Shown one piece after another: positions 24,261 to 46,625 of a stretch of 64,000 nucleotides of DNA. Origin of the DNA: Allomyces macrogynus ATCC 38327. Lineage: Eukaryota > Blastocladiomycota > Blastocladiomycetes > Blastocladiales > Blastocladiaceae. The stretch is from positions 1,033,553 to 1,097,552 of the forward strand of contig GG745343.1 in assembly GCA_000151295.1 (NCBI GenBank), given 5' to 3'. Both the position numbers and the translations under genes were made by a program. Position 1 is the first letter of the stretch; every line of letters starts with the position of its first letter. The notes beneath the pieces are model-generated. The model saw only the letters and a program-made list of their open reading frames with translations. It ran no database searches and was not told the origin of the DNA.

Positions 24261-24286
24261 TGCGTATGCCCTTAAGGGCATACGCA
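24261..24286. repeat. Perfect 26-bp palindrome at the element tip
   Basis: TGCGTATGCCC-TTAA-GGGCATACGCA reads the same on both strands, and the mirror copy ends the right repeat at 46600-46625. In linear DNA it could fold into a terminal hairpin. Such ends suit a protein-primed or hairpin-primed replication mode. Confidence 0.9.
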
Positions 24287-25159
24287 CATGCCCCCAGGGC
24301 ACACCCTCAGTGCCCCCAGGGCACGCCCTGCCCGCAAGGGCAGCATGGGTAGAGTCCACCTATCGATGATTGCTCACCCCGAGTGAATTAGCGATACTCT
24401 ACCTTAGTCTACCTTGTGCCAATCCCAAGTCTACCTGCCCTCAGGGCACACCCTGCCCGCCAGGGCAGCAGTCAGTGAATAAAGGGTGTGTGCGGTAAGC
24501 AATCGAGGAATGCTCGTGGGTCGTGTCGATGATGGGCACAATGAGGTCGTGCCCTGGGGCACAATCGTGGTAGGTCAGGGCAGCGTCAGCAAACGTTGGT
24601 CGACGACCCCCCAAACGACTTGTAGTTATAGCATGTCCCGGTCAAAACCTATGTTATAGTCGATCAATGGCCCCTCGGATGACTTCGCGCGACCCCCCAA
24701 ACCTCCCTGGTTTAGCGTGACCGGGCCGTAACTTTTCGAAAGTTACGAACGTTTGGGGGGCGCATAGTCGCTATGCAAGCTGTTCACAGTTCACGGTTCG
24801 ACGGCCGTTTTAGAAAGTTTCAGAATGAATGTGGGATAAGCCCAGCGTCCTGTCCTTAATCCACATTCGACAGCAGAGGTCCCTAAATCCACCCCCAAAT
24901 CGTGAACATCGTGAACACCACACTGAGAGTTGGCCGCGGCAAGCTATCGGCTGTTCACTGTTCACGATTTCACGGCCATTCCAAAGTGTCCGGGGTAAGG
25001 CATGTCCTTAATCCACATTTGACAGCAGAGGTCCCTCAGTCCACCCATGAATCGTGAACCGTGAACACACTCGATAGCATGCCGCGGCCAATGGCGCTCG
25101 TGGCATGCCTGTCCTTGGCTGTCCTTGGGTGTACACGGTTTCTCTACAAGAAAATGAAT

Positions 25160-25362
25160 CGTGTACAGCTAAACGCTCGGGGGTCCAAACTGTACACGAT
25201 GTACACAGTTTGGGGGGTATTTTAGAAAGTTTTCTATTTCAATGTGGAGTAGGCTTTCATAATTGCGTGCTTAACCCACATTCATTTGGAAATCTTTCCA
25301 AAACCACCCCCAAACTGTGTACATCGTGTACATGCGCCACCCCGAGCAATTAGCTGTACACG
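25160..25362. repeat. Large fold-back module inside the left inverted repeat
   Basis: Left arm gtgtacagctaaacgctcgg, then tgtacacgatgtacacagtt. The right arm is its imperfect reverse complement (aactgtgtacatcgtgtaca, then ccgagcaattagctgtacac). Two related but weaker modules with gttcac/gtgaac in place of gtacac lie at about 24,780-24,920 and 24,950-25,070, each containing cttaatccacattYgacagc. The mirror copies are in the right repeat (45,524-45,726 for this module). Confidence 0.75.
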
Positions 25363-25495
25363 GTTTGGACCATGGCTCACGGCAGACACTGTCTTTGTTC
25401 ACGATTCTGTTCACGGTTTTATTGAAGGTCAGGGATTCGAGCCAGCCGAGGCTCCGCGTGCCGCAGGCATGTGGAGAAGGGTGCGCGAGGGGGTT

Positions 25496-27790
25496 TTATT
25501 CATCATCAAACACGACACTGGGGCCCTTGTAAATATAGACTTGGCACATTCGTCCGTCAATCCGCTTGCGGACCTTCTCAAAGAGTTTCTTGGTCTCTTC
25601 ATGAGGAACAACGTGACGACCAAGTTCACGACCAAACCCAACCATAGACAGGGTGTGATTGCCTGGGAAACGACGCTCGCGGTAGTCGCGGTAAATCTCG
25701 TACAGGTCCTGGATGTCCATTTCCTGCTCGACCGTCACAGCACCACGCCCGTTGATGCCACGCGCAAAGCCACCGTATTCGATAAAGTCCTTGACAAGCG
25801 CGCCAACTGGGTCAAGAGAAGCCTCCACCATTTCCTGGCGCTCCTCGTTCCGTGGGTAGTGGCTAATGTCGATATGCTCCAAGTCCAAATCGACGATGTA
25901 CGTGAAGATCGCATCAGCATTGGCCTTGACGAATCCTTTGAGTACGTTGAAATACTGCTTGTTGTTGCGGTACAAGTTTGAAACCAGCAGGGCCAGGATA
26001 CGACGACACGTTTCCGTGATGTTGAGAGGGTTGCTGTTGTTGGTCGCACCCACAAAGTTGTTGGTGTTGGCGACTTGGTATTTCTTGACGTACTTTTCGT
26101 TAATGATGCGGTAATCGTCGGTCATCACGTTTTTCATGACGTCCATAATCTCGTTGCGCTTCGCCTGCGACACCGCAGCAATCTCGTCGACGAGCACAAG
26201 AATCTTGTTTTCGAGCTCGCTGTTAAAGTCGCCCTTGAGGAATTTGCCAAGGTCGTTGATGGTCGTGCAGTTATGCCGGCCGAGAATAAACTCTGCGAGC
26301 AATGAAAAAAACATTCCTTTGCCTGCCCCCTCAAGGCCATGCATCATCAACATGACGCCAGACGGTTTCCCAGTCGTGAGAATCCACTGAATCCAGCGCA
26401 AGACGTACTGAAACTCGGCATCGCGTCCAGCACAGACGACGGTGCGAAGGTAATCCAGGTACAGCTTAATTTCCGACTCTTCGACTTTACGGTCGAGTTT
26501 CTTGGCAGCGAAACCAGAGAACGCGTTAAAGTATTCGATGATGAGACCGTTGTCAGCAGAGGGACCCCATTTCGGAGCGTACAGGTCAAACGTCCGCTGC
26601 TTCACTTGAGGAAACAACTTGTGCAGCGGCCGCGAGAACACAGCGTCGACAATCTTCTCCGAGACGTTGAGTTCCCACGGGTCATTAACCGTTCGCCGAA
26701 AGTAGTGCTCACCAGTCTTCAAATCTTTCCGAACAAATTCGCCGAGGTAAGCAACAAGCGCTGCCATCCACGACTCCTGGTCTTCTTCCGACTTGCGTGT
26801 CGACATGTGCTCAAAGAACTTCATTGCCAGGCGGTCCTTGTAAGCCCCGTCGCACTTTTCGATTTGCTCTGCCGCAAACTTCTGTGGGTCCTCGCAAAAT
26901 GCCGGGATTGCAGACTTGGCCTGAGCACCTGCAGGAATCGGCTTCTCGGCCCACGCAACGTCAAAACCAGTCTGCTCCGTCGTGTACGCGTGCAGCCCGG
27001 CCAGGAACTGGTCATTCACACGTTCCACGTCACGCTTCACCATGAGGCCATCAAACATGAGCACCGAGGGCACAACGTCGTTGGCGCGGCAGTAATCCAC
27101 CGCCCTGACCAAGATGACAGACTCGACTGCATTGAAGAGATTCGATAGCAGCGACCCCTTGTTGACTGCGCCGCCCGCCCGCGTCTTGCAAAACTTGACA
27201 ATATCCGGAAACTCGCGCTCAACACGCGGCGCAACCTCCTCGTACAGGACGCGGTGCATCTCAGTGACCTCAGGGTGCATGGCGTAGGTCGGGAATTCGT
27301 CAAAGAGAACAGCGAGGAATTTCTGTTTGTCGACCTTGTAGCGAGCAAGTGCCGCCGCCCGATCCGACACGTACAAATCGAGCGCATCTGAATGCTTGTT
27401 GTAATGCGCGAGAATGCCTCGCAGAATTGATGGCGCCGCCCCGACCATGTCCAGGTCCTGGAGCACGCCGTGCGTGAGTGGGTTGCGAAAGACTTCCTTG
27501 TTCATGCGCTGCAGCGACTCACTTGTGGGATAGAGTCGGCCAAACTTTTTCTCCAAGTTGCGCAGCGGCGTCTTGTGCTCGTAAACAGTTTCCTTGCCTT
27601 TCTCCTTTGAGTAGCGGGCCATGTACTGACTCTTGAACTTGCGTTTCTCCTCACGGTCCAGGCCAGAGTAGCGTTCGAGCAGTTCAGCAGCCCTCTCCAC
27701 CGAAATAAATTCGTTGAGAACGATGCGGCGACCATCGTCAAACTGGGTCTCAATGTTGGCGAGCGTGGCGGCAATCTTGGCGGCGTTCAT
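25496..27790 (-). CDS. Replication protein: family-A-like polymerase (TVpol type) fused to SF3 (D5-like) helicase
   Basis: 764 residues from the ATG at 27790. The C-terminal half is an SF3 helicase: Walker A GLEGAGKGMFF (about residues 483-493), Walker B ILVLVDEIA (about 525-533) and SF3 motif C NTNNFVGATNNSNP (about 568-581), followed by an LxxLxxxYRDYR helix. The N-terminal half has a polymerase-like pattern: a putative motif A DLDMVGAAPSIL (about 112), a helix KGSLLSNLFNAVES (about 205) and a motif-C-like VLMFDGLMV (about 244). This is the arrangement described for the transposon-virophage polymerase (TVpol) fusion. It should unwind and copy the viral genome. The gene points outward, with its stop 3 bp inside the left inverted repeat. 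The family-A assignment of the N-terminus is weaker than that of the helicase. Confidence 0.88.
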   Translation of the reverse strand: MNAAKIAATLANIETQFDDGRRIVLNEFISVERAAELLERYSGLDREEKRKFKSQYMARYSKEKGKETVYEHKTPLRNLEKKFGRLYPTSESLQRMNKEVFRNPLTHGVLQDLDMVGAAPSILRGILAHYNKHSDALDLYVSDRAAALARYKVDKQKFLAVLFDEFPTYAMHPEVTEMHRVLYEEVAPRVEREFPDIVKFCKTRAGGAVNKGSLLSNLFNAVESVILVRAVDYCRANDVVPSVLMFDGLMVKRDVERVNDQFLAGLHAYTTEQTGFDVAWAEKPIPAGAQAKSAIPAFCEDPQKFAAEQIEKCDGAYKDRLAMKFFEHMSTRKSEEDQESWMAALVAYLGEFVRKDLKTGEHYFRRTVNDPWELNVSEKIVDAVFSRPLHKLFPQVKQRTFDLYAPKWGPSADNGLIIEYFNAFSGFAAKKLDRKVEESEIKLYLDYLRTVVCAGRDAEFQYVLRWIQWILTTGKPSGVMLMMHGLEGAGKGMFFSLLAEFILGRHNCTTINDLGKFLKGDFNSELENKILVLVDEIAAVSQAKRNEIMDVMKNVMTDDYRIINEKYVKKYQVANTNNFVGATNNSNPLNITETCRRILALLVSNLYRNNKQYFNVLKGFVKANADAIFTYIVDLDLEHIDISHYPRNEERQEMVEASLDPVGALVKDFIEYGGFARGINGRGAVTVEQEMDIQDLYEIYRDYRERRFPGNHTLSMVGFGRELGRHVVPHEETKKLFEKVRKRIDGRMCQVYIYKGPSVVFDDE

Positions 27791-28366
27791 TGTGATTATA
27801 ATTGGTCGAGAAAATATTTTGCGTGTTCGTCTCAAACGCGTTTGCAAACGTGGGTTTGTGGTGCAAGGGTCGAAGCAAAAGTGCGCCGATGGGGGTCCAG
27901 AAACGTGGGCAAAAGGTCGACTTTATGCTGTTGCTGTGGATATCGATGAGCTCAGTTTCGTGGACGAAGTTTTGAAGTTTGAGAACTTGGTGTGAAACTT
28001 GGCGAGAAAGTTTGCAAAGTCGCGCGTGCAGAACCAAACGTTCAAAGGCAAAAGTGAGTGTGGCGCAGCAGACCCCCCAAACATGAAACTTGTTCGCAAG
28101 CCCCAACGCGCTGAGCCACAGCCTCACCCGCGAATTAACGATAATCCCTGCGGACATATAGCCGACCATTCCCCCTGTGTCTTTGCTCTTCAGATGTCGA
28201 CGACCCGGGTCGTTGGCATCTCTCCCATGAGAGGCGGCCTGGCCAGCTGCTTGGACATGGGTGGTCAGAAGACCGTGGAAACAGGGGTGGAACGAGTTGT
28301 GGTTATTGTAATAATTGGCCGTTGGGCGATGAAGAGCTTCGGGTCTCAAGGTATGTGGCCCGAATT
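27791..28366. other. Viral intergenic region without a supported gene
   Basis: About 575 bp upstream of the replication gene. Long overlapping frames exist on both strands, but none has a plausible start, motif or viral-type codon use. It probably contains the replication-gene promoter; AT-rich tracts lie at 27,790-27,830 (ttgtgattataattggtcg). Confidence 0.4.
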
Positions 28367-28504
28367 TCATTGGTTCACGTTGACGAAACGCTGGGTGTCG
28401 CGCACGTACAGGGGGACAACTAATCGTGGCGAGTTGAAGAGCTTTCTTCCTTGTTGGGCTGCGGAGAGTAGGTTTTGGCCGTTGGGCGCTGGAAACGAGG
28501 ACAT
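28367..28504 (-). CDS. Candidate 45-residue viral protein
   Basis: The ATG at 28504 opens a frame starting MSSFPAPNGQNLLSAAQQG, followed by a basic RKLFNSPRLVVPLYVRD segment and ending VNVNQ at a TGA (28367-28369). It lies in the otherwise empty stretch between the replication gene and the split gene, on the same strand as both. Composition looks protein-like, but no family is recognised and a chance frame is possible. Confidence 0.35.
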   Translation of the reverse strand: MSSFPAPNGQNLLSAAQQGRKLFNSPRLVVPLYVRDTQRFVNVNQ

Positions 28505-28662
28505 GATTCACCATTTCTTGGAGTTGGAGTCCCAGATTGGCTTGAGCGCGGCTTGGCGGAGCCTGCTGCTTGGTCATTCCGGGACTCCAAACTCGAGACT
28601 TGGTCACAACCGCCATTGTGATCACTTCTCGGGCCTCCTGCAACCGAAATCTATTGCTACAT

Positions 28663-29006
28663 TTATTCTGTGTCATCGTCAGCGGTGTTACTATGCTCTT
28701 CGGTTTTCTTCGGCAAAGGGGTCGAGCATGCGGTGCCAAGAATTTTCATGGCGTGCCACATCAACACTTTGTTGTACTTGACCACAATATCAATCCATTG
28801 TTCGTCGTAACTATGCAACCCAAACTCGGTCATGACCTTTCGGATGTCGACATTTGTTCGCTTCAATGCTCGTTCGCCAACAATCGATGTCAGTTCCCAG
28901 GTGTTTCGGAAGTGGTCAAAGGGAGTTTTCCTAAACTTTCGTGCAAGCAACTGTTCGGCAATGACGACCTTTGCCCCAAGTGCGCGGACAGTTTTCACAA
29001 AGTTGC
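28663..29006 (-). pseudogene. 3' part of a viral gene split by the copia retrotransposon
   Basis: Encodes ...NFVKTVRALGAKVVIAEQL, then WELTSIVGERALKRTNVDIR and ending in an acidic ADDDTE at 28663. The 5' part lies at 34710-34884. Removing 29007-34709 (retrotransposon plus one GTTGC) joins SCN to FVKT in frame, giving a protein of about 175 residues. No known domain is recognised. An open frame extends from here into the LTR but has no biological meaning. Confidence 0.7.
29002..29006. repeat. Target-site duplication GTTGC of the copia element, left copy
   Basis: GTTGC directly before the left LTR, repeated at 34705-34709 directly after the right LTR. Confidence 0.9.
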
Positions 29007-29193
29007 TTTCGCAAGGTTGAGCGGGAGAGGGAATGCATTTGGTGTGTGCACTCTGCACTTCAGCGGTGGTGGCAACCATAACCTAGGTTGCCACCATCAT
29101 TTACACAAGAATCCAACTCGAACAGCTCCAACAAGGAAACAATGAGGGAAGACAAATAACAAGAAACACAAATGCGAGACGAACACTTCGACA
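29007..29193 (-). repeat. 3' LTR of the copia element
   Basis: 187 bp, matching 34518-34704 except at 29010. It contains an internal hairpin (ggtggcaacc...ggttgccacc, about 29,063-29,093). Confidence 0.92.
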
Positions 29194-29252
29194 CTCCCCC
29201 ACGGCGAGCATTCCCTACGCGCGCGGAGAACAAAACAACAACTCCAATCATG

Positions 29253-31352
29253 TCACGAAGCTTGCGGAACGCACGAGTCAGCAAGCGGCTTGGTCAAAAT
29301 GTCGGCAATCTGGTTCTCCGTGTCCACGCGCCGCAGGTCAATCGTCTTCTTGGCAACTTGGTCCTGCAACCAGTGGGCGTGGATCTCAACGTGTTTCGAC
29401 GAGAGCAGCGCGTCCTTGGCAACACGCTCCGCCGACTCGTTATCTTCCATGAGCGGCGTCGGTCCATCTTGTTTGTACCTGAGCTCTTCCAGCAGCGCGC
29501 GTATCGTGAGGATCGTGTCGCCCGCTAAGCTTGCCGACACGTACTCAGCAGCCATGGTCGACTTTGCCACGAGCGTCTGCTTCTTCGAGCGCCAGGCGAC
29601 AGGGCTACCGCCAACCCGTATCACAAAACCCGATGTCGACTTGCGGTCGCCACGATCCTCGGCCCAATCAGCATCAGCAAACGCGTCAAGTTTCATATCC
29701 TTGCCCAAATACTTGATGCCGAGGTTCGACGTGCCCAACAGGTACCCAACAAGCCGCTTTGCAGCCTCGAGATGTAGCGTACCAGGTGCATGCATGAAAC
29801 GGCCAAGAATTGCAGTCGCAGCAGCAATGTCCGGCCGCGTTTTCGTCGCCGCAAAGAGCAGCGACCCGACAATGGCGAGGTACTCGGTCTTTACAACTGG
29901 ATCAATGATCTTGGGCAACTCGAGCAGCTCCTTGAAGTCGTTGGGTCGCATCGGGATCACCGGCCGCATCTTTTCGGGGATCTGGAACCGCTTGCCCATT
30001 GACTTGACGTACTGGCTCTGGTCAAGGTAAATCGACCCTTCGTCACTGTACGTAATCTTGCACCCGAGCAACCATGCCGCATCACCCAAGTCGTGCACCT
30101 TGAACTCGGACTTCAACTTGTCGACAATCCACTTGCGCAGCTCCTTGGTTGACGCGACAATCGGCAAGTCGTCGACATAGACTCCAATGAAGATCACGCC
30201 CTTGTCCGTCTTGTGCATGAACAGGCACTTGTCGTACTTGGACTCCGCAAATCCGAGTGAAATCAGGTAATCGGCCAAACGGCAGAACCACATGCGCGGG
30301 GCCTGCTTGGTGCCGTACAGCGCCTTAACGAGCATGCAGACCTTGTCCGAGTTCTGCTTGTCAACGAAGCCTGGTGGCTGCTCCATGAGCACGCGCTCCT
30401 TGATGTAACCGTACAGGAAGGCCGTCTTGATGTCGAGCTGCAGCGGCCGGACCTTGAGATACGCGGCGAGCGACAGAATCAGACGCAGCGTGTCAAACGA
30501 CGCAACGGGCGCAAACGTGTCCGTGTAATGCACGCCTGGAATGGCCGTGTATCCCTTGGCAACAAGTCGCGACTTGGCGCGCACAGGCTTTCCGTCTGCC
30601 CCGAGTTTCCACTTGAAGATCCAACCGGAGCGCATCACCTTGTCGCCTGGGCGGTGGTTGACGAGCACCCATGTCCCATTCTCGACGAGCGAGTTGTACT
30701 CGTCGAATGTCGGCGCGCGCCAGTCTGGGTGCGCTAGCGCTTCCTCGACCGTCTTGGGTTCCCAAACTGCACCCTGGGCGCCGACTTGAGCTGCGGCAAC
30801 GCATGCGAGCACCGCACTTGCCGACTCAACAGACTTGCTGAGATCCGAGTCCGGGTGCGCACGTAGAAACAGAGTCGGCAAATCGAGATCGACAATTCCG
30901 GACAGGGGCGAGCCTGAGTCAACGCCAGGGCCAGCTAGGGAACGAACAAGAGGGGCCGAAGCGTCAGTGCAATCACCATTCAGCCGCAACACGCGCACTT
31001 TCTCAACTGCGTCAGCAGCACGTTCGACGCCCCTTTTAGGTTCAGGATCCACCTCCCCCACGTCGGGCGTACTGCGGACGTGGGCAATGGCGTCGGGATC
31101 AAAACGGCGAGCGACCTCGGGCTGTAGGCCGCGCAAACGGCGTGATTGCCGTGCAACGGGCGCTTGAGCATCAGGTCGAAGAGCACCAACACCCCCATTG
31201 CTCACTTCTGGCGCATCGGCCTGACGACCGGGCTCCCCCACGTCCGCGAGGACCCCCCACTGGTCCCTGGTCCACCTGCGGCAAACCGGGCCTCTCGCCA
31301 ACTTGCAGATGATCGCGCTCCAACGCTGGCCCCGCCAGTGGGAGCTCGGCAA
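29253..31352 (-). CDS. Copia reverse transcriptase-RNase H segment
   Basis: Encodes the C-terminal pol. The RT part starts around WKLGADGKPVRAKSRLVAKGY and GVHYTDTFAPVA, followed by PLQLDIKTAFLYGYIKE and the catalytic VYVDDLPIVA (YVDD box). A tether follows, then copia RNase H with DAFADADWAEDRGDRKSTSG and AEYVSASLA. The stop is at 29253. The convincing similarity begins after about 30,760. The upstream part overlaps the integrase segment (31171-31352) in a different frame, so a frameshift near the C runs at 31,235-31,258 is needed to read through. Confidence 0.93.
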   Translation of the reverse strand: MPSSHWRGQRWSAIICKLARGPVCRRWTRDQWGVLADVGEPGRQADAPEVSNGGVGALRPDAQAPVARQSRRLRGLQPEVARRFDPDAIAHVRSTPDVGEVDPEPKRGVERAADAVEKVRVLRLNGDCTDASAPLVRSLAGPGVDSGSPLSGIVDLDLPTLFLRAHPDSDLSKSVESASAVLACVAAAQVGAQGAVWEPKTVEEALAHPDWRAPTFDEYNSLVENGTWVLVNHRPGDKVMRSGWIFKWKLGADGKPVRAKSRLVAKGYTAIPGVHYTDTFAPVASFDTLRLILSLAAYLKVRPLQLDIKTAFLYGYIKERVLMEQPPGFVDKQNSDKVCMLVKALYGTKQAPRMWFCRLADYLISLGFAESKYDKCLFMHKTDKGVIFIGVYVDDLPIVASTKELRKWIVDKLKSEFKVHDLGDAAWLLGCKITYSDEGSIYLDQSQYVKSMGKRFQIPEKMRPVIPMRPNDFKELLELPKIIDPVVKTEYLAIVGSLLFAATKTRPDIAAATAILGRFMHAPGTLHLEAAKRLVGYLLGTSNLGIKYLGKDMKLDAFADADWAEDRGDRKSTSGFVIRVGGSPVAWRSKKQTLVAKSTMAAEYVSASLAGDTILTIRALLEELRYKQDGPTPLMEDNESAERVAKDALLSSKHVEIHAHWLQDQVAKKTIDLRRVDTENQIADILTKPLADSCVPQAS

Positions 31353-32811
31353 TCAGGTTGACCGCGGGAAGTTGATCCGGAACCGCCATAGGCACTTGAA
31401 CTTGATCACGCCGCGCACCACGCCCGATCTCCTCATCAACAACTTCATCGCCACCAACGCCATCGACCACAGTCGACGGCACGTCCAGCGACCCCAAATC
31501 AACTCGCACGGGCGACCCAACCTTGACCTTGGCCGACGGCAACGTGCGAGGAGGACCAGCAACAACACGCGACTCTGCAACACAGAGCCGCTCGGCAAAC
31601 TTGACATCGCGCGTGACAAACACCTTCTGTCCGTCCCACACGCGGTAGCCGTCGCGCGTGACCCACGGCAACTCGTCTCCATAGCCAACCAAGCGCACTG
31701 CAACACCTGCAGCGAATCCGGACGCGCCCTGATGCACTTGCGTCGTCGGAACAACAGCGCCACCAAGCGAGCCCCACACCTTGCACTTCGACATGTTGGG
31801 TGACGCGCCGAAAACAACCTGGTATGGCGAGCGACCACTGAGCGAGTCACTTGGCACACGGTTGCGCACATAGCACGCCGCGCGCACACACTCTGGCCAG
31901 AGGGAATCCGGCGCCTTGGCGGCCGTCATGGCCGCACGCACCATCGACTTGAGCACACCCTGCGTCCGCTCGGCAAGCCCATTTGACTCTGGCGAGTTCG
32001 GAGACGTTGTCGACAAGTGCATGCGACGCGAGAGCAGAATCGAGCGTAAATTGTTGCCAATGAACTCGCCACCATGGTCGCTGTGCAGCCAGCCCGCAGA
32101 CACGCCGAAGAACGACTCGGCGTGCTTCAGCAAATCGAGAAACTGCGGTCCAAAGTCGCCCTTGCGCCGGAGAAGCAGCACGAAGCACCAGCGTGAGTAC
32201 TCGTCCGTGACCGTCGCAAAGTAGTTGACACCCCCCATGCTGACCGTCTTCATCGACACCAAATCAGCGTGGAGGACGCCAAATAGTCGATTCGCACGCA
32301 AATGGCGCAGCGGATGCGGCTGGCTGCGCGCGTTGGCCACAAGACACGTCATACACTCGTGTAGCGGCTTGGCCACACCCATGTCGTCCTTGATACCATG
32401 TTCGAGCGTACACACGGCCGAAACGCGATCATGACCAACGTGAAAGAGTCGCGCGTGCCACAGCTCGGCGAGCGACACCTTCTTGACCGCATCGGCGACA
32501 TGCGCACCAACAGGTCGCTTACCCCAAACGTCGAGCACCCGCGCGTCCTTGGTTGGTCCCTTCTCGCACACGCCTGGGACGATCCACGTATCCCCATGCC
32601 GCACGCCCTTGGCGAGCAGATCTCCTGTCTCGCAATGCACGAACTGGACGTCTCGATCCCCGAAGATGACTCGCACAGCAGTCCGATCGTACAGCTCAGA
32701 GACTGAGACAAGCGTCTTGAAGCCGGGGAATGTACCAGACCGGGTCGAGGTGAACAATGTTGCCCGAAGGGCGTGCGGATGCGCATCGTGCCCTTGCCAA
32801 TCGGACGGCAC
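31171..32811 (-). CDS. Copia GAG-pre-integrase and integrase segment
   Basis: Contains the pre-integrase HARLFHVGHDRV and zinc-type CMTCLVANAR, then the DDE core: first Asp in VLHADLVSM, second in WLHSDHGGEF, Glu in NSPESNGLAERTQG. C-terminal GVAVRLVGY and KVFVTRDVKF match copia integrases. The segment is in the gag frame, not that of the flanking protease and RT segments. Confidence 0.92.
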   Translation of the reverse strand: MPSDWQGHDAHPHALRATLFTSTRSGTFPGFKTLVSVSELYDRTAVRVIFGDRDVQFVHCETGDLLAKGVRHGDTWIVPGVCEKGPTKDARVLDVWGKRPVGAHVADAVKKVSLAELWHARLFHVGHDRVSAVCTLEHGIKDDMGVAKPLHECMTCLVANARSQPHPLRHLRANRLFGVLHADLVSMKTVSMGGVNYFATVTDEYSRWCFVLLLRRKGDFGPQFLDLLKHAESFFGVSAGWLHSDHGGEFIGNNLRSILLSRRMHLSTTSPNSPESNGLAERTQGVLKSMVRAAMTAAKAPDSLWPECVRAACYVRNRVPSDSLSGRSPYQVVFGASPNMSKCKVWGSLGGAVVPTTQVHQGASGFAAGVAVRLVGYGDELPWVTRDGYRVWDGQKVFVTRDVKFAERLCVAESRVVAGPPRTLPSAKVKVGSPVRVDLGSLDVPSTVVDGVGGDEVVDEEIGRGARRDQVQVPMAVPDQLPAVNLIAELPLAGPALERDHLQVGERPGLPQVDQGPVGGPRGRGGARSSGRCARSEQWGCWCSST

Positions 32812-37311: not shown

Positions 37312-39509
37312 CCGATCCGGACAGCGTCAACCGTTCCGCTCAAGTAATATGATGTTAGCGTGCCGTTCCCGCACTGCACCTGCAAATTCAAGGCTTTACT
37401 CGCCGTTGGTACAGTGATGACCATGGTAAAGACTTGAGCCTGCATCGAGACGCCAAATGTTGACGCCACAGCCGATCCAAGGAACCCGTCAATGGTTGTT
37501 CCACTCGAATATGACACCACTCGGTAGTTCAAGACGACGTTTGCCGGGGCAGTCTGCGGCCCAGGAACGTTGAGCATTGACAAGTTGAACGTCACAATGA
37601 AAGTGCCTTTGGGAAAAATAAACTGCCCATTTGTTCCTGCACTGTAATTCGAAGCACCACCGCCACTGAATGAATTTGGTGTTTGATCGAAAGACTGCCA
37701 CGTCCCGTCAATCGTACGTCCAGAATTTGATGCGCCGAGGGCAACAGAGAAGCGACATGGGACGCCATAGAACGAACTTCCCTGGATTTGTTGGAGCGTC
37801 ACGCACTCATTTGCATTAACAGCATCAGATGCCGAGACCCGGCCAGCGACTTGCAGTTTGGGGCCAGACGAATTCGGAGCCACGCCAATGGACACATTAC
37901 CACTGGTAGCGAGCTGTATCGACGCTGAGCTTGCAGTGCCTATCTCGCCATACCCATATGACGCATTTGTGTTGAACGCAATGTTGAATTTCTTCACAGA
38001 GTCGGACATGATGTCAATGTACGCCACGCTGTTTGTACCCCCGCCCTCATTGCATTTCAACGTAAGCGAAGCGTTTCCTGGATTAAACACGTATGCGCCA
38101 GTGGTCGTCAGCCAACTACACCCGACCCCTCCGTTCGGCACGACAAGTGCACCCGTCGACTTGGACGTCGTGGCAGCAGTTGAATTGACAGTGACCTGGC
38201 CCGCAAACGTCCCTGTAGAGGCGACGTTTAAAGCTTTCGCCACGCCAACACCGCCAGCCACTGTCAGCGCTCCAGTTGTTGAGCTTGTCGCATCGGTAGT
38301 GACCAACAGATTCACTGCGGATGTGTTGGTGACCATCCCCGTGGTTGCTGTCGAAATTAAAGAATTTACTTGGTTGAGTGTCGTGAGATGTTGACCCGCA
38401 GACGCGGTGGCACCCGTCACATTGCCCGTGACAACGACGTTCCCACCAACATATGCTGATTTCGCCACGCCAACACCGCCTGCCACTGTCAGCGCGCCCA
38501 CAGTCGCACTCGTTGCGTCGGTCGTGTTGCTGAATGCAAATTGCTGGCCGAGACCAAGCAAAGACTGAGACACTGTTCCTGTTAATTTTGACGAACTTAG
38601 CCCTGCGATTTGACTGTCAACGACCTGGCCAGTGAGTTTCGATGCACTTAGACCGGAAATGCTTGCATCAGCGATTGTGCCGGTGAGCAAAGTCGTGGGG
38701 ATACTCGGTAGCGCTGCCAGCGCCACATTTCCAGTCAATTTAGCAGCGTCGAGGGATGCGATTTGGGTATTCGTGACCAGGCCAACGAGCTTGGATGCTG
38801 AAATAGAAGTGAGTTGTGGGTCATCGAAACTACCAGTTACTTTGGAGGAGGGAATTGACGGGATGATGGTCGTTGAAATCGTACCAGTCAATTTTGTACT
38901 GTCGAGGGATGCGATTTGGGTATTCGTGACCTGGCCTACAAGCTTGGTTGTGGCCAGACTTGACAATTGAGTGTCGTCGAAACTACCAGTGACTTTGGAG
39001 GAGGGTATACTCGGAAGTGCTGTCAACGCCACGGTCCCAGTCAATTTCGAAGCATCAAGGGAAGAGACTTGTGTACTGGTGACCGCGCCTACCAATTTGG
39101 TCGCCGACAAACTGGTCAACTGGCTATCCGCGAAGGTCCCGGTCACCTGCGTTGATGGAATTGTGGGTAATACGCTGAGACTCAAGGTCCCGGACGAAAC
39201 TTTGGCAGCATCGACGCTAACAATCTTTGCATTCGTGACAGTGTTGTCCAGCAGTTTGGCGCCGTTCACAGCCGAAATCTTTGCGTCGGGGACACCACCA
39301 TCCTTGACCGTAAGTTGGTTGCTCGCGTTCACAGCGAATGTTGCAGTGTCATATGCCAGGGTCACATTCCCGCTTGTAGCAGTGATGGGCGGAGTGCCGG
39401 TTGTGGAAGACGTCCCTGCTACCACACCTGCTATAGCTGCTTGTAGCTCAGCGTCGGTCGCATACTGGGAGTCGGCTGACAGACCAAACAAGTTAAGATT
39501 GCTGTTCAT
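37308..39509 (-). CDS. Fibre-like structural protein with tandem beta repeats
   Basis: 733 residues from the ATG at 39509. After a short N-terminus (MNSNLNLFGLSADSQYATDA), residues of about 95-330 consist of at least five imperfect units of about 43 residues of the type S-K-V-T-G-x-F-D-D-x-Q-L-x-S-L-x-x-x-K-L-V-G. Further on, two units of ALTVAGGVGVAK type follow, separated by a TLNQVNSLIST helix. Both kinds occur in phage tail fibres and large-virus surface proteins and favour trimeric beta-helices. The last 150 residues form a globular beta-rich head (IDGTWQSFDQTPN ... YYLSGTVDAVRIG). It probably mediates attachment from the vertex. It runs antiparallel to its neighbours and starts 24 bp from the next gene on the plus strand. 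Confidence 0.78.
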   Translation of the reverse strand: MNSNLNLFGLSADSQYATDAELQAAIAGVVAGTSSTTGTPPITATSGNVTLAYDTATFAVNASNQLTVKDGGVPDAKISAVNGAKLLDNTVTNAKIVSVDAAKVSSGTLSLSVLPTIPSTQVTGTFADSQLTSLSATKLVGAVTSTQVSSLDASKLTGTVALTALPSIPSSKVTGSFDDTQLSSLATTKLVGQVTNTQIASLDSTKLTGTISTTIIPSIPSSKVTGSFDDPQLTSISASKLVGLVTNTQIASLDAAKLTGNVALAALPSIPTTLLTGTIADASISGLSASKLTGQVVDSQIAGLSSSKLTGTVSQSLLGLGQQFAFSNTTDATSATVGALTVAGGVGVAKSAYVGGNVVVTGNVTGATASAGQHLTTLNQVNSLISTATTGMVTNTSAVNLLVTTDATSSTTGALTVAGGVGVAKALNVASTGTFAGQVTVNSTAATTSKSTGALVVPNGGVGCSWLTTTGAYVFNPGNASLTLKCNEGGGTNSVAYIDIMSDSVKKFNIAFNTNASYGYGEIGTASSASIQLATSGNVSIGVAPNSSGPKLQVAGRVSASDAVNANECVTLQQIQGSSFYGVPCRFSVALGASNSGRTIDGTWQSFDQTPNSFSGGGASNYSAGTNGQFIFPKGTFIVTFNLSMLNVPGPQTAPANVVLNYRVVSYSSGTTIDGFLGSAVASTFGVSMQAQVFTMVITVPTASKALNLQVQCGNGTLTSYYLSGTVDAVRIG

Positions 39510-39533
39510 TTTATTATCTGCCCATAAAAATAA

Positions 39534-39794
39534 ATGTCCTTTCAGACTCTCGACGAACTTGCCAAGGAAGTGGGGGCCCCGGCTGCGTTCTACGAATTGG
39601 ATGATGACGACGCAAAGCAAGAGTTTCTCGACAAGTTCATCGCCGCTCGCACAAAGATTCTCAGACGGTACCGCCTGCTCAAGGACACAAACGACCAAGA
39701 CAAAGCAGCCAAAATCCGGGACCGGATGCGTAGCAAGCTGAAAACCCGCGAACTCGCCCGCGACCGCCAGTTGCTGGACAGTCTGTGGTTGTAG
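39534..39794 (+). CDS. Small helical viral protein, 86 residues
   Basis: Starts in an aaataaATG context directly opposite the fibre gene. Acidic first half (MSFQTLDELAKEVG ... YELDDDDAKQEF), then a strongly basic helix (ARTKILRRYRLLKD, RDRMRSKLKTRELARDRQ) ending LLDSLWL. Possibly a DNA- or scaffold-binding protein. No family recognised. Confidence 0.65.
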   Translation: MSFQTLDELAKEVGAPAAFYELDDDDAKQEFLDKFIAARTKILRRYRLLKDTNDQDKAAKIRDRMRSKLKTRELARDRQLLDSLWL

Positions 39795-39862: not shown

Positions 39863-41347
39863 ATGGTGAAGAGCTCTGGCAGCACAACAAACGGCGGAGG
39901 CGTTAGCAAACGGCGGGCCATCAAATCAGACACGGCACGGACCCAGTTCCTAATCGAAAAGGCCTTTAGTGAACACCCGGACATTTTCGAGCGTGTAGAT
40001 CATTTATCTTTCAAAGTGATAGGCGACCCGACCAATGAGGGGCGACCCTTTCGTCTGCGTTCCTACAAGGCGCTATTGCAAAACCTCAATGCTGTGCTGA
40101 GGAACCGCGGAAAGAAAGCATACGGTGAGACCCCTATGGAGGTTGACGAGCAGTCACCAGCATCGAGTAATCCCAACGCTGAAATTCAATATCCGCCGCC
40201 CGATGACATGAAGGTATCTGCAGACCGACCTCAGCTCGAACTCGACGCAACCACAGGGTCTGACACAGAGAAGGCACTTGTGTTGAAGGGGACTGGTGAA
40301 CTCGTAAAGCAGGACCTCAATCTTCCACCGATTCTGGCTCGCCAAATGGCCGAAGTTGCCCCCACAGCTTTGGTCGAGATGCCAGGTGCTTTTGACACAG
40401 CAGTCGGTCTCGCTCGCAATAATAATGGTGTGGCAGGCCCCGTGAGTGCAAACTGGAATCCACAGGCTGGCGGGAATTACCAAGCCGTCATGCTCCAGCA
40501 AAACAACACACAGAACAACACACAGAACAATCTGTACCAAAACAACATGCAGCTTAACACCCAGAACATCCAGAATATTCAGACCATTATTCAAACGTAT
40601 CCCGGCATTGAGCCTGCATTGGGGCAGCTCTTTGCTGGGATTCAAGCGACGTTCCTGAGCGCGCAAGAACAGAATGCAGCACTGCTGTCTGCATTGAACA
40701 GCCTTGAGATGAATCTCAATGCGGAGGGGGGTAACGCAATGGCTGTTGTTGGCAATCTGGTAAAGAGCGAACTTGACAATCTCGCTGCCCAGCAGGCTCT
40801 TCGTGACTCTGCTATGATGGCGGGTGTTGACCGAAACACAAACCTGATTGCTCAAGTCGGTATGCTGAGTGAAGACATTCAAAAGGGCCAGCAAAAACTT
40901 CAAGGCGCTGTTTCAGACGTCCCGCAACAAATTGCTCAGGCGACAGACGCAACGACCGCGGCCATTGAAAGTATGCCTGGAAAAGTGGTCGACGTGTTGA
41001 ACAGGACAATGGCCAACCCACTAAACAAGTTGTCGAGCACTTTGGAGAAGGTTCAAGGCGCGGTCGGAAACATTGGCGGGGCTGGCGGGGCTGGTTCTAA
41101 TCCGTTACAAGACAAGAAAGTTCTCGGTGATGCTGTGAAGCAAATCGTCGAGGCCGTCCGCCCAACTCCGCGCGTGCCGTGGGAGGACCGTCAACGGGCT
41201 GTCGATGTGTATTTTGCCACTGTCCCTCGCTTCCGACGCAATCCGCGCGCGCCTGCCCGTGAACTTGGTGGAGATGAGCCGAAAGTCGTTCAGCCGCGTG
41301 GGCCAAAAGTCCATTACCTACCACAAGGATTCCAGGGGGTCCAGTAA
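39863..41347 (+). CDS. Uncharacterised viral protein, 494 residues, putative virion component
   Basis: I do not recognise it. The N-terminus is basic (KRRAIKSDTARTQFLIEKAF) with a small folded region containing FKVIGDPTNEGRPFRLRSYK. A linker follows, then an Asn/Gln-rich stretch (about residues 205-240, QNNTQNNTQNN type) and a long helical, coiled-coil-like region (about 255-410) of Ala/Gln/Leu heptads. The C-terminus is Arg/Pro-rich. Position immediately before the packaging ATPase and capsid genes suggests a minor structural or scaffolding protein. Confidence 0.72.
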   Translation: MVKSSGSTTNGGGVSKRRAIKSDTARTQFLIEKAFSEHPDIFERVDHLSFKVIGDPTNEGRPFRLRSYKALLQNLNAVLRNRGKKAYGETPMEVDEQSPASSNPNAEIQYPPPDDMKVSADRPQLELDATTGSDTEKALVLKGTGELVKQDLNLPPILARQMAEVAPTALVEMPGAFDTAVGLARNNNGVAGPVSANWNPQAGGNYQAVMLQQNNTQNNTQNNLYQNNMQLNTQNIQNIQTIIQTYPGIEPALGQLFAGIQATFLSAQEQNAALLSALNSLEMNLNAEGGNAMAVVGNLVKSELDNLAAQQALRDSAMMAGVDRNTNLIAQVGMLSEDIQKGQQKLQGAVSDVPQQIAQATDATTAAIESMPGKVVDVLNRTMANPLNKLSSTLEKVQGAVGNIGGAGGAGSNPLQDKKVLGDAVKQIVEAVRPTPRVPWEDRQRAVDVYFATVPRFRRNPRAPARELGGDEPKVVQPRGPKVHYLPQGFQGVQ

Positions 41348-41371: not shown

Positions 41372-42160
41372 ATGTTTACCGTAAAACCGCTCGACAGCCA
41401 AGCAAAGAGAGGTGGGCCGTACCTTGTCCCTAAAATCCCCGCCACGGTATGCTTGCTCGGACCAAAGGCTGCTGGTAAGAGTACCGTGCTTTTAAACATG
41501 GTGCTTTCGCCACTGTGCTGGGCACACTGCTTCGACAAAATCTACGTCTTCTCGCCCACAGCGCACCTCGACCCCAAGTTTAAGCTGCTCATGGAAACGC
41601 CCATCTTAAAGCACACGCCGGGAATGCCCTACGACCCTGAGCTGTTGAAGGTGTCGCGTGACTGCTTTATTAATAACGTCGACAAGTTTGAGGAGACGCT
41701 TCGTCATATAGAAATGCTGCAGGACCCAGAGAAGCGGGATTACGAAAAACACCCTGGCCAGCCTTACGACAATATCCTCATTGTGTTAGACGACATAGCA
41801 GGCACACGTTTCGCACGCAGTAGGTACCTCGATAGCTTTATCGCGCTGTCACGGCACCGCAAGTGCACCATGGTCATGTCGGTCCAGCAGTTCAAGGCAA
41901 TCAGCCCGCTTGCACGCAACAACATGAGCTACTACGTACTATTTGAGACATATAACAAAAATGAGCTGCGAACCATCTACGACGCGTGTGGCGGGCCGTT
42001 TTCATGGGAAGAGTTCATTGCGATATGCGACAACGTGTTTGAGACTCCCCATGCGACCTTGAACATTAATCTCCAGAATCCAGGCGTCGCGTTTCGGTAC
42101 AACAACTCGTTTCACTCGTTTATTCTTAGAGACAGGGACGCTGAAGAACACGACGAATAA
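41372..42160 (+). CDS. FtsK/HerA-type genome-packaging ATPase
   Basis: 262 residues. Walker A is LLGPKAAGKSTVL (residues 28-40) and Walker B NILIVLDDIAG (134-144), followed by a sensor-like MVMSVQQF. This A32-like packaging ATPase is a hallmark shared by Polintons, Polinton-like viruses, virophages and large DNA viruses; it pumps DNA into preformed capsids. It is the first of the usual ATPase-capsid-penton block. Confidence 0.92.
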   Translation: MFTVKPLDSQAKRGGPYLVPKIPATVCLLGPKAAGKSTVLLNMVLSPLCWAHCFDKIYVFSPTAHLDPKFKLLMETPILKHTPGMPYDPELLKVSRDCFINNVDKFEETLRHIEMLQDPEKRDYEKHPGQPYDNILIVLDDIAGTRFARSRYLDSFIALSRHRKCTMVMSVQQFKAISPLARNNMSYYVLFETYNKNELRTIYDACGGPFSWEEFIAICDNVFETPHATLNINLQNPGVAFRYNNSFHSFILRDRDAEEHDE

Positions 42161-42193: not shown

Positions 42194-43516
42194 ATGTCAT
42201 CCGCCGTCACAAACTTCTCGAATGTCCTACCGACCTCGGTGGGCAAAGAGCTGGTAATGAAACCACCCTCTCAGTCTGCCGCAGCCGACCGCCAGACTCT
42301 CAAATTTCCATGCACACAAGGTTCAGCGTTCTCGGCGTCTGGCAATGGTTTGAGCTCGGTCATCCGGTTCCAGCTCCCCGCAGTCAATCGTATCATCGAC
42401 TTGTCGGCCGGCGTGCGTTTTGCATTCAAGGCGTCGACGTACAAGGACTCAGCGTGTACTCAGCCCACCACTCAAGGCGATACCACTGAGCAATACTTCT
42501 CGGAAGGTATCTCGAGTGTCATCTCGCGCCTGCGTATTCTGACGTCGGCTGACCAGCTCCTCGAGGATATTGACGGGTATGGCTTAATTTCACGTATCCT
42601 TGCAGACGCTTCAACGCCGGCAGCAATGAAAGACACTGTCCTCGGTATCGCACAAGGTTATGGGTCACGTGGAAATCGCTCAGGACCCAACCGCCCGTAC
42701 CTCGTTCCTCTCCACTCGGCACTCTTTAGTCAGGACAAGTGGGTGAACCTCAAGCACACCTCGGGCCTGGTCGTGGAAATCACACTGGCTGCACCACAAC
42801 ACTGCCTCATCAACACGACTGGAACTGTCGGTGGGTACGTTGTCTCGGACCCTTATATCACGGTCGACTCAATCGTGCCGCACGCTGAACAGTTGAGTCA
42901 ACTCGATGCTGCGTGGCAAGCGGCTGGCGGTGTCATGAACACAGGTTTGACGTGGTCGCGCAAGAATCCCTCATTCGTTACGCCAACGGGCTCTGTGGTC
43001 ATTGCCGACCGACATGCACAGCAGCGAGCACTCATCATGGCGTTCCGCACCCCGCAATTTTGGGGCAAGGCAAACGTCGACCCCCTCGCTCGCGGCCAGC
43101 CTGGACTTACGTCGTACTCTATCAAAAACGGCGATGAGATGGTCACTCAGCGCCCAATCGATTGTACTTTCCCTGGTGTTGAGCCGCTGCGCGAACTTGA
43201 GATTTTTACTCGGGGCCACGTTGTTGGTGATGCTATCAATGCCAGCAAGTGGAATGACGGTGGCAGTGTCACGGGTGGTGCATTCAACCCTCCCAATGGC
43301 AGTTTCACCATCGCGCGCACCTTCGAGACGTCGTCGCTGGTTTCAGGCTCAGAGAAGGCCAAAAAGAGCGGTGTCGACATCGAGGTACTGACAACCGGCC
43401 AGCCATTCATGGTCGACTCGACACTTGGCACAGTTGCATGGCGCTGTGATGCATTTGTCGGTTATACCACTGCAATCTCATTCAACATCGACGGCTCAGT
43501 GGACGTCTTCAACTAA
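42194..43516 (+). CDS. Major capsid protein, double-jelly-roll type
   Basis: 440 residues. Position between the packaging ATPase and the penton-type gene, length, and beta-rich composition all fit a Polinton-like virus major capsid protein. Family-like features are the early FQLPAVNRIIDLSAGVRF, the helix with ISRLRILTSADQLLEDIDGY, the LVPLHSALFSQDKWVNL strand preceding HTSGLVVEITLA, and a C-terminal strand ending INIDG-like (FNIDGSVDVFN). The start lies in a cctaaATG context. The assignment is from pattern and synteny; a structure prediction should show two stacked jelly rolls. Confidence 0.85.
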   Translation: MSSAVTNFSNVLPTSVGKELVMKPPSQSAAADRQTLKFPCTQGSAFSASGNGLSSVIRFQLPAVNRIIDLSAGVRFAFKASTYKDSACTQPTTQGDTTEQYFSEGISSVISRLRILTSADQLLEDIDGYGLISRILADASTPAAMKDTVLGIAQGYGSRGNRSGPNRPYLVPLHSALFSQDKWVNLKHTSGLVVEITLAAPQHCLINTTGTVGGYVVSDPYITVDSIVPHAEQLSQLDAAWQAAGGVMNTGLTWSRKNPSFVTPTGSVVIADRHAQQRALIMAFRTPQFWGKANVDPLARGQPGLTSYSIKNGDEMVTQRPIDCTFPGVEPLRELEIFTRGHVVGDAINASKWNDGGSVTGGAFNPPNGSFTIARTFETSSLVSGSEKAKKSGVDIEVLTTGQPFMVDSTLGTVAWRCDAFVGYTTAISFNIDGSVDVFN

Positions 43517-43559: not shown

Positions 43560-43814
43560 ATGAAAATCTCCGATTTATGGACGTCGTTCAAAACAGCAAT
43601 TGCATCCCTTGGCGCCTTCGTATACAACCATCGCCGCGATATCACCCAGGGCGTGCGTGAAGTCGCCCGGTTAATGCATGGAATCCCTGGTTTCGCCGCT
43701 CCAACAGAGGCAGTGATGGCCGCGACCAACTGGGTGGACAGTGGCTTTGACTTGTGGGATTCGTGGAGAGGGACAACTGCAGATAGCGGCGGTGGACAGG
43801 CAGGAGGCGTCTAA
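43560..43814 (+). CDS. Small viral protein between the capsid genes, 84 residues
   Basis: MKISDLWTSFKTAIASLGAF begins an amphipathic helical region; the C-terminal half has WVDSGFDLWDSWRG and a Gly-rich tail. Small amphipathic proteins at this place in related elements are often membrane-active minor capsid proteins, but no sequence signature proves that here. Confidence 0.65.
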   Translation: MKISDLWTSFKTAIASLGAFVYNHRRDITQGVREVARLMHGIPGFAAPTEAVMAATNWVDSGFDLWDSWRGTTADSGGGQAGGV

Positions 43815-43836: not shown

Positions 43837-44613
43837 ATGACAAGCATTCCACGAGTCAAGTACGTGACGATTTCAAGCAAGGACCTGGACTCTAACAACT
43901 CGTTTCGGCTCCCACGACCCATCCAGGCCAAGGGAGTTAAAATTGTATCCGCCATGATTCCAAATACGTGGTACAACATCACGAAATACAACAATGTGTT
44001 GGGCATTCGTGGTAAAGTCGGGTTCTCGGCTTACGACGGTGGTGTTTTTATTCCTCCCGCCTACTACAACCCCACAACGTTGTGCGATAAAATCACCGAC
44101 CTTCTCAATGCTGCCAACGCAGAGTTTCACTGGCAGGGCGTGTGGTCCGTAACCTGGAACCAGGCCACAGGATTTGTGACAATCAGCAACTCGTCGATGA
44201 ACTTTCGCATCATCAGGAATCTGGACAATGGGATTGAGCGGCATCTCGGGTTCGGCTATGCACCTCTTGACACTTACACAATCGAATCATTCTCACAGAC
44301 GGGAGCTTATGCGCTCAACCTGGCGCCCATCGACACGCTGCATCTCAAATCAAATATCGGAAGCATGCTGGCCGACTACACCCACAGTTCATTCCCGAAT
44401 AATGGTTCATTGATGACGTCGTTTCACGTCCAAGGGTCGTATGGCCAGAGCTTCGTTTACCAGAACTTTGCAGGGAACGAATTCTTTAACTTTGACAGTA
44501 AAGGTATCGCCGAGGAGGTCCACGAGATTGACTTGGAGTTGTGCGACCCCAAACTCCGCCCTGTAGATTTTAATGGGAACTACTGGACAATTACCATCGC
44601 GTTCCTGACGTAA
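43837..44613 (+). CDS. Penton-type minor capsid protein (single jelly roll)
   Basis: 258 residues, starting in a gtaaATG context. It opens with a beta strand (VKYVTISSKDLDSNNSFRLP) and VKIVSAMIPNTWYNI. It then has GGVFIPPAYYNPTTLCDKIT, the typical 'iPpG-Y-t--el---in' strand-turn-helix of Polinton and Polinton-like penton proteins, followed by TGFVTISNSS and a C-terminal NGNYWTITIAF strand. It forms the fivefold vertices. The gene directly follows the major capsid block. Confidence 0.85.
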   Translation: MTSIPRVKYVTISSKDLDSNNSFRLPRPIQAKGVKIVSAMIPNTWYNITKYNNVLGIRGKVGFSAYDGGVFIPPAYYNPTTLCDKITDLLNAANAEFHWQGVWSVTWNQATGFVTISNSSMNFRIIRNLDNGIERHLGFGYAPLDTYTIESFSQTGAYALNLAPIDTLHLKSNIGSMLADYTHSSFPNNGSLMTSFHVQGSYGQSFVYQNFAGNEFFNFDSKGIAEEVHEIDLELCDPKLRPVDFNGNYWTITIAFLT

Positions 44614-45020: not shown

Positions 45021-45061
45021 ATTCAAAGTAACTTTGTTACAATTACTTTGAATCACTCTCT

Positions 45062-45337
45062 TTACAAATATACGTGAGCGCACTCATCACAGAAATACGG
45101 TCGGTCAGGTCCTGGAGTCGCCACGAAGACATTTTTTCCAAGCTTGAACGCCAAACCACAACCGTCACAGTGGCCTGCTGTGATCCGGGTGCAATGTCCA
45201 CAACTTGTCGGTGTTGTGCTGTTCCCGCCAAACCAAAACACGGTTCTGCGAGCGCACTTGAGGCAGTACGCTGTGTCGCACTTTGAACATTCGTACTGAG
45301 TTTCGAGGGGGGTGTCGCAGCGATTGCACAGTGGCAT
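45062..45337 (-). CDS. Zinc-ribbon protein, 91 residues
   Basis: Begins MPLCNRCDTPLETQYECSKC and contains at least six CxxC-type pairs (CNRC, CSKC, CLKC, CGHC, CDGC, CDEC). This suggests two or three zinc-binding knuckles of treble-clef or ring-like type. Located at the far end of the element, 55 bp inside the right inverted repeat, on the minus strand. It might act in transcription control or ubiquitin signalling; the fold alone does not decide. Confidence 0.75.
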   Translation of the reverse strand: MPLCNRCDTPLETQYECSKCDTAYCLKCARRTVFWFGGNSTTPTSCGHCTRITAGHCDGCGLAFKLGKNVFVATPGPDRPYFCDECAHVYL

Positions 45338-45392
45338 TTACTGATGGCTGGCAAAATAAATCTAAAGTGCGTTTGACTCGTCACTCTCTAAC

Positions 45393-46625
45393 CCCCCTCG
45401 CGCACCCTTCTCCACATGCCTGCGGCACGCGGAGCCTCGGCTGGCTCGAATCCCTGACCTTCAATAAAACCGTGAACAGAATCGTGAACAAAGACAGTGT
45501 CTGCCGTGAGCCATGGTCCAAACCGTGTACAGCTAATTGCTCGGGGTGGCGCATGTACACGATGTACACAGTTTGGGGGTGGTTTTGGAAAGATTTCCAA
45601 ATGAATGTGGGTTAAGCACGCAATTATGAAAGCCTACTCCACATTGAAATAGAAAACTTTCTAAAATACCCCCCAAACTGTGTACATCGTGTACAGTTTG
45701 GACCCCCGAGCGTTTAGCTGTACACGATTCATTTTCTTGTAGAGAAACCGTGTACACCCAAGGACAGCCAAGGACAGGCATGCCACGAGCGCCATTGGCC
45801 GCGGCATGCTATCGAGTGTGTTCACGGTTCACGATTCATGGGTGGACTGAGGGACCTCTGCTGTCAAATGTGGATTAAGGACATGCCTTACCCCGGACAC
45901 TTTGGAATGGCCGTGAAATCGTGAACAGTGAACAGCCGATAGCTTGCCGCGGCCAACTCTCAGTGTGGTGTTCACGATGTTCACGATTTGGGGGTGGATT
46001 TAGGGACCTCTGCTGTCGAATGTGGATTAAGGACAGGACGCTGGGCTTATCCCACATTCATTCTGAAACTTTCTAAAACGGCCGTCGAACCGTGAACTGT
46101 GAACAGCTTGCATAGCGACTATGCGCCCCCCAAACGTTCGTAACTTTCGAAAAGTTACGGCCCGGTCACGCTAAACCAGGGAGGTTTGGGGGGTCGCGCG
46201 AAGTCATCCGAGGGGCCATTGATCGACTATAACATAGGTTTTGACCGGGACATGCTATAACTACAAGTCGTTTGGGGGGTCGTCGACCAACGTTTGCTGA
46301 CGCTGCCCTGACCTACCACGATTGTGCCCCAGGGCACGACCTCATTGTGCCCATCATCGACACGACCCACGAGCATTCCTCGATTGCTTACCGCACACAC
46401 CCTTTATTCACTGACTGCTGCCCTGGCGGGCAGGGTGTGCCCTGAGGGCAGGTAGACTTGGGATTGGCACAAGGTAGACTAAGGTAGAGTATCGCTAATT
46501 CACTCGGGGTGAGCAATCATCGATAGGTGGACTCTACCCATGCTGCCCTTGCGGGCAGGGCGTGCCCTGGGGGCACTGAGGGTGTGCCCTGGGGGCATGT
46601 GCGTATGCCCTTAAGGGCATACGCA
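45393..46625 (-). repeat. Right terminal inverted repeat
   Basis: Mirror copy of 24261-25493. It ends with the same 26-bp palindrome (46600-46625) and contains the same fold-back modules. Confidence 0.95.

Follow-up and report, generated by a model that had tools for sequence, protein, structure and literature searches.

Genes of integrated Polinton-like viruses (PLVs), namely those for the major capsid protein (MCP), the ATPase and the helicase, were reported in Allomyces macrogynus by Bellas and Sommaruga (2021, PMC7805220), and the main text of that paper gives terminal inverted repeats (TIRs), integrases of the rve or tyrosine type and target-site duplications (TSDs) of 5-7 bp for fungal and oomycete PLVs. 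In the available text of PMC5294986 a D5 helicase was also reported in A. macrogynus, and fungi were excluded from a large protist survey according to the available text of PMC10120064. For the Allomyces genes, no ends or TSDs are described in the available text of PMC7805220, and the main text of that paper makes no mention of palindromes, hairpins or excision. The element analyzed here occupies positions 24261-46625 of a 64-kb window (the whole stretch of DNA under analysis, C60:1033553-1097552) in an Allomyces genome of 54.0 Mb and 75 contigs that was searched for relatives. Each end of the element is a 26-bp palindrome, and the same palindrome stands alone at four other places in the genome. 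That this interval is an integrated Polinton-like element of Allomyces, that its ends are palindromic, and that the solo palindromes would be scars of lost elements, seen for one family of copies (family A) only, is a joint reading considered quite likely. To our knowledge two matters are unsettled for such elements: how the ends of a linear Polinton-like genome are copied without a protein-primed polymerase, and whether integrated copies leave the chromosome. Ends conserved as a fold, together with scars that have empty homeologous sites, make both questions testable by reading DNA.

Comparison of the two ends showed that the first 1,233 bases inward from 24261 and from 46625 are identical (left TIR, 24261-25493, plus strand; right TIR, 45393-46625, minus strand); in the repeat listing the pair appears as 1,236 nt at 100% after rounding. 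The element is flanked by an exact TSD, TGCCG (24256-24260 and 46626-46630), which ends at 5 bp. A homeolog of the left flank in C69 (L067), 80% identical, reaches exactly to the element border, and C69 aligned to both window flanks with one TGCCG, unbroken across the junction, as an empty site. This empty site shows the element to be joined to host DNA at either border as a genuine insertion, and on its strength an assembly chimera was rejected. An earlier sequence-only reading of this DNA had proposed a Polinton-like virus whose ends are intact, integrated in a flagellated eukaryote; the inverted repeats and the duplication that it listed were confirmed by the end comparison, and the join to the host at both borders, which it had named as the place where a chimera would show, held in C69. 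Allomyces is a fungus with swimming spores (zoosporic), in agreement with the flagellated host of that reading. The total span is 22,365 bp, or 16,662 bp by arithmetic once a nested retrotransposon and one copy of its GTTGC duplication are removed. The GC content of 2-kb blocks was 0.60-0.68 before the element, 0.51-0.54 in the element outside the retrotransposon and 0.59-0.61 in the retrotransposon blocks. Homeologous segments in C69, C15 and C49 matched C60, C44 and C38, respectively, at 80-88% identity and provided natural empty sites; such segments point to a duplicated or hybrid host genome.

The ends of the element are a perfect 26-bp palindrome, TGCGTATGCCCTTAAGGGCATACGCA, at 24261-24286 and again at 46600-46625. 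These were the sole palindromes in the 64 kb to pass a scan for arms of at least 10 bases with a loop of at most 4 and one mismatch tolerated in longer arms, and simple arithmetic puts the expected number of perfect 26-bp palindromes in a sequence of this length at about 0.001. Related copies were sorted by a genome search with the major capsid protein candidate of the element (440 amino acids; 42194-43516, plus strand; assigned from synteny and purifying selection), which gave at least 36 matches grouped into 26 places, and the labels of families A, B and C derive from this grouping. Family A has three copies, namely the window, C59 (92%) and C67 (91%). Among the matches listed, family B accounts for 18 places at about 49-70%, and five distant places lie at 29-31%, four of them being family C. 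The C59 and C67 copies have the same 26-bp ends as the window, with TSDs CAGTG and ACAGT, respectively. The family-B element at C48 (TIR of 674 bp at 98.7%, TSD GGTGG) ends in TGGCGCCGACCTCARGGTCGGCGCCA, with 11 of 13 positions paired on the left and 12 of 13 on the right, and the family-C element at C41 (identical 1,699-bp TIR, TSD GTTCA) ends in TGTCACGGACTGTCAGTCCGTGACA, in which 12 of 12 pair. A second family-B element, at C74, has the TSD GTGAG, so that 5-bp TSDs were found in all six elements with both ends read; for the family-B element at C42 a second end was not found in the sequence examined.

Terminal palindromes of 25-26 bp thus occur in three families of one genome, with sequences that differ between the families. 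Relative to the right end of C48, the B ends at C40 and C47 carry one change in each arm, and pairing is preserved. Overall, the shape of the palindrome is kept while its letters change across families. Because the ends stay palindromic though the sequence differs, the palindrome itself is probably the functional part of the ends.

A genome-wide pattern search with the family-A palindrome, at three mismatches or fewer, returned ten places, of which six are element ends and four are solo; the reversed control returned none. The solo copies are at C38:328006 and C44:473240 (both perfect), C27:139127 (one mismatch) and C26:56441 (two mismatches). All four stand between perfect 5-bp repeats (CGACG, GAGCT, CTGAC and AATGC), and past the palindrome each has at most about 5 bp of TIR. 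At the C44 palindrome exactly 31 bp are missing from the homeolog C15, and at the C38 palindrome exactly 31 bp are likewise missing from the homeolog C49. The C44 copy sits in a DAO-type oxidoreductase, the frame of which is shifted; the proteins of A. javanicus and A. arbusculus are continuous across this point. In protein comparison, the host oxidoreductase fragment shares 99% identity with A. macrogynus ATCC 38327, in a match covering 79% of the query, against 92% with A. javanicus and 88% with A. arbusculus; on protein evidence of this kind the host is taken to be A. macrogynus or a very close strain. In ATCC 38327 the gene model omits residues just past the scar point, a sign that this gene carries the scar as well. 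The C27 copy (L063:1774-2469) was observed inside an open frame that continues through the palindrome, with a weak DUF6604 match just upstream. An inverted, 100% identical second copy of 633 bp of its left side, at C27:167104-167736 (L071), stops within the first bases of the palindrome.

The product expected from loss of an element can be read from its anatomy. The same palindrome is present at both ends and reads alike on both strands, so the ends are also direct repeats of each other, and loss of the interior therefore leaves one palindrome between two TSDs. Interior loss would account for the four solo copies, and three causes for them were weighed. The first is passive loss by host processes, in which homologous recombination, single-strand annealing or replication slippage between the terminal palindromes, aided by pairing of the long TIRs, removes the interior much as solo long terminal repeats (LTRs) are formed. 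The palindromes are mutual direct repeats and the expected product is exactly one palindrome between both TSDs, as found; against this, 26 bp is a short repeat to act at a distance of 16-22 kb, and no scars were seen for family B despite its greater number of copies. Passive loss is given roughly an even chance.

The second cause is that the solo palindromes are footprints of excision, with a nuclease of the element or the host cutting both palindrome centers, the chromosome rejoining, and the freed genome carrying half-palindrome ends as hairpins or a circle. The product would be the same single palindrome between TSDs, and such cutting would account for ends that conserve pairing and not sequence. 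However, no such nuclease was identified in the element, which is known from chromosomal copies alone, and no scar was found for family C, although one of its elements has fully identical TIRs. Passive recombination and cutting at the palindrome centers give the same product and cannot be separated from sequence alone. Excision is possible, though rather doubtful. The third cause is insertion of the solo palindromes as such, with a single free terminus or a very small piece of an end as the DNA that the integrase joined to the chromosome. Since the palindrome has CA-3' on either side, one terminus resembles a complete substrate, and TSDs are present. Twenty-six base pairs is, however, very short for a synapsed integrase substrate, and the limit of about 5 bp of TIR in every solo copy also speaks against insertion of end fragments, which is judged very improbable.

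A mechanism can be proposed for how the palindromic ends might work. A retroviral-type integrase would insert a linear genome with 5'-TG...CA-3' palindromic ends at a 5-bp stagger, producing the 5-bp TSD; the anatomy of this step was observed at the locus, and the chemistry is presumed. The palindromic terminus could serve as a symmetrical site for the integrase or a nuclease, as a fold-back end for genome replication, or both. If no protein-primed polymerase takes part, a linear genome could plausibly be copied from a self-priming or hairpin end. In its full form, this account holds that a fungal Polinton-like virus group has its terminal palindromes as working ends, which would fold back when the genome is replicated and be cut at the center on excision, each departure leaving a 26-bp palindrome between 5-bp TSDs. 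The full account is put forward tentatively and is considered unlikely as a whole; if true, excision of proviruses in a fungus could be counted from the scars that it left.

Several observations weigh against the joint reading. The B palindromes are imperfect, with 11-12 of 13 positions paired, and unpaired changes occur in the left end of C48 and in the B ends at C31, C42 and C59. The comparison with family A covers two families of one genome. The C27 and C26 scars have no clean empty site, insofar as the C27 duplicate diverges at the scar and the C26 homeolog (C32) could not be aligned. Searches with the palindromes of the other two families, again at three mismatches or fewer, found 10 places for B and 3 for C, all of them element ends and none a solo copy. 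The possibility that the B and C families also leave scars was dropped as unsupported, since every place found is an element end. The element is known only from chromosomal copies, as noted for excision. Finally, an AlphaFold model of the capsid candidate built from four sequences, in which the double jelly roll named as a test by the sequence-only reading would have to show, was poor (mean predicted local distance difference test score, pLDDT, 44.7; predicted template modeling score, pTM, 0.39), with strands and several helices.

This poor model also bears on whether the element is a mere DNA transposon with no viral life, its capsid-like genes having been mis-assigned. The capsid candidate has no Pfam match, and 12 aligned members gave only two stray families, one member each, at E 0.098 and 0.15. 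A wider search of a protein collection gave three relatives among 8,000 candidates scored, and the same three with a 12-member profile: proteins of Allomyces arbusculus (65%) and A. macrogynus ATCC 38327 (60%), and P0003 (42%), the last encoded on a 7.6-kb contig. Against the transposon reading, the ATPase, capsid and penton candidates stay together: at the capsid-candidate loci L009-L028 of families A and B, the ATPase was found in 20 of 20 and the penton candidate and a small protein alongside in 19 of 20. Purifying selection was seen in family A at dS of about 0.7-2.0, and MCP, ATPase and helicase genes were reported in A. macrogynus in the main text of PMC7805220. The capsid candidate and the MCP of that paper, compared by description only, are likely of the same family. 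The transposon-only explanation is accordingly regarded as improbable.

Among family-A copies, which differ at dS 1.1-1.5, the ratio of nonsynonymous to synonymous substitution (dN/dS) was 0.06-0.07 in the capsid candidate and 0.05-0.06 in the ATPase. In family B it was 0.10-0.32 (10 copies, two with stops), and in family C 0.10-0.13 for three close pairs, the remaining three pairs being saturated. With the reservation that dS is high and the method simple, these values are more in keeping with selection while the elements spread than with decay in place. Family A consists of mosaic copies: between the window and C59, dS is 0.012 for the integrases, where substitutions are too few to give a useful ratio, and 1.19 for the capsid candidates, and identity shifts abruptly from block to block within about 65-99%. 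The helicase matches fall in three frames in the C59 copy, and the helicase and the 494-aa protein each fall in two frames in the C67 copy. In nine family-B capsid candidates (L012 and L014-L021) the observed/expected CpG ratio was 0.45-0.77, versus 0.86-1.07 in the three A copies, and CpG to TpG changes were more frequent away from C42 than towards C42 in all four copies compared, which suggests decay at methylated CpG or a process resembling repeat-induced point mutation (RIP). Genome matches numbered 37 for the replication protein and 32 for the integrase. At C65:1241959-1242573 a 49% capsid-candidate match lies within an open frame of 4,145 amino acids, and at C40:134842 an integrase match lies within one of 5,321; these giant frames possibly reflect masked bases.

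The predicted replication protein (783 amino acids; 25496-27847, minus strand) has a superfamily 3 (SF3) helicase as its C-terminal half, with matches to PF19263 at 7.7e-20 in Pfam, to phage primases in PHROGs and, for a three-member profile, to solved primase structures at 2.5e-20. In its N-terminal half the blocks D-x-D-M-V-x-A-A-P-S-I, N-K-G-S and S-V-L-x-F-D-G are kept in all three aligned relatives, and these polymerase-like motifs are what we take to be a family-A-like polymerase of the transposon-virophage type. Of the fused polymerase/SF3 helicase in the sequence-only reading, the helicase stood, and the polymerase half is a candidate by these conserved motifs. The packaging ATPase of the same reading was upheld as an A32-like one (41372-42160, plus strand; PF04665, 3.2e-8), as was its contrast with classical Mavericks, which carry a type-B polymerase and an Ulp1-like protease: neither DNA_pol_B_2 nor an Ulp1-type cysteine protease had a Pfam match among the window frames scanned, in which a very divergent protease is possible. 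The retroviral-type (rve) integrase (36163-37311, plus strand) matched PF00665 at 1.3e-7 and 32.2 bits, just under the cut-off of 32.6, and also phrog_157. Features of PLVs found at the locus therefore comprise the A32-type ATPase, TIRs with host integration, and a replication protein by its SF3 helicase part.

Downstream of the capsid candidate are a small conserved protein with an approximate start (43560-43814, plus strand) and the penton or minor capsid candidate (258 amino acids; 43837-44613, plus strand). DUF5901 was found in six of seven aligned members of the latter, the window's own included, with a best value of 1.4e-7 and the window protein below the cut-off; the family-C element at C41 encodes a 31% relative. 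Matches to solved structures were taken as chance, both for the capsid candidate (sea-anemone cytolysins at E 0.13-0.15, a beta-lactamase at 0.0033) and for the penton candidate (lysozyme at E 0.013). Viral contigs searched with the capsid candidate, ATPase, helicase and integrase gave no confirmed relatives. The other genes are a repetitive fibre-like protein (37308-39698, minus strand; no Pfam or PHROG match), conserved proteins of unassigned function at 34957-36144 (plus strand, from the first ATG; no Pfam match below E 0.9) and 39863-41347 (plus strand), and a Cys-rich, zinc-finger-like protein of 91 amino acids (45062-45337, minus strand) with all Pfam matches below the cut-off. Between the helicase and a small split gene, window positions 27860-28690 are matched poorly or not at all in the C59 and C67 copies.

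That small minus-strand gene, of unassigned function, was split by a Ty1/copia retrotransposon of 5,698 bp (29007-34704, minus strand), which inserted after the element itself had done so. The C-terminal piece of the gene is at 28663-29006 and the N-terminal piece at approximately 34705-34886; an uninterrupted relative in the C59 copy (P0024) had no Pfam match. The sequence-only reading further suggested that the element could still form particles, or might guard its host against a larger virus; bearing on the former are this split gene and the poor capsid model. The retrotransposon is flanked by GTTGC at 29002-29006 and 34705-34709 and bounded by LTRs of 187 bp with one mismatch (29007-29193 and 34518-34704). 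Its minus-strand frames cover the reverse transcriptase (29253-31352), the integrase side (31171-32811 and 32349-33083) and gag (33001-34386), and the order gag, integrase, RVT_2 between LTRs, in overlapping frames and with a TSD, is that of Ty1/copia. The polymerase domains in 29253-33083 sit in different, overlapping frames, and because of this the copy itself may be damaged.

Several known systems resemble this element in part. Solo LTRs of retrotransposons are formed when one end repeat is left between TSDs after loss of the interior; the Allomyces ends, in contrast, are inverted repeats, of which only the palindromic last 26 bp can serve as a direct repeat. Hairpin-ended linear DNA genomes, such as those of poxviruses and the telomere sites of N15, have a palindromic terminal sequence able to fold back; here the likeness would be one of working only, the Allomyces ends being known from sequence. 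Maverick/Polinton elements share the rve integrase, the A32-type ATPase, TIRs and a TSD of 5-6 bp (in part from the available text of PMC12220804); the Allomyces element differs in its SF3 helicase protein and in the lack, within the frames scanned, of the polymerase and protease matches named above. The cryptophyte PLVs described in the main text of PMC12220804 are alike in having many integrated copies, TIRs, an rve integrase and TSDs; their rve-integrase TSDs are typically 6 bp, whereas those of Allomyces are 5 bp in six of six, and that main text mentions neither palindromes nor hairpins. The endogenous mavirus-like elements (EMALEs) of Cafeteria burkhardae, as presented in the main text of PMC8547959, are likewise small integrated viruses in many copies, with TIRs, TSDs, a high-GC host and interruption by retrotransposons; the intruders there are Ngaro retrotransposons rather than Ty1/copia, and palindromes go unmentioned in that main text. 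The same silence on palindromes holds for the main texts of PMC7805220, PMC10120064, PMC11071308, PMC12220804 and PMC12721341. Among the literature titles and abstract openings covered, a scope with most of the subscription literature outside it, none described Polinton-like elements that end in palindromes or leave solo scars. PLV genes in A. macrogynus (PMC7805220) and retrotransposons in integrated Cafeteria virophages (PMC8547959) are already known from the available texts of those papers; within the literature searched, what is new in Allomyces is the palindromic ends kept as a shape and the solo scars.

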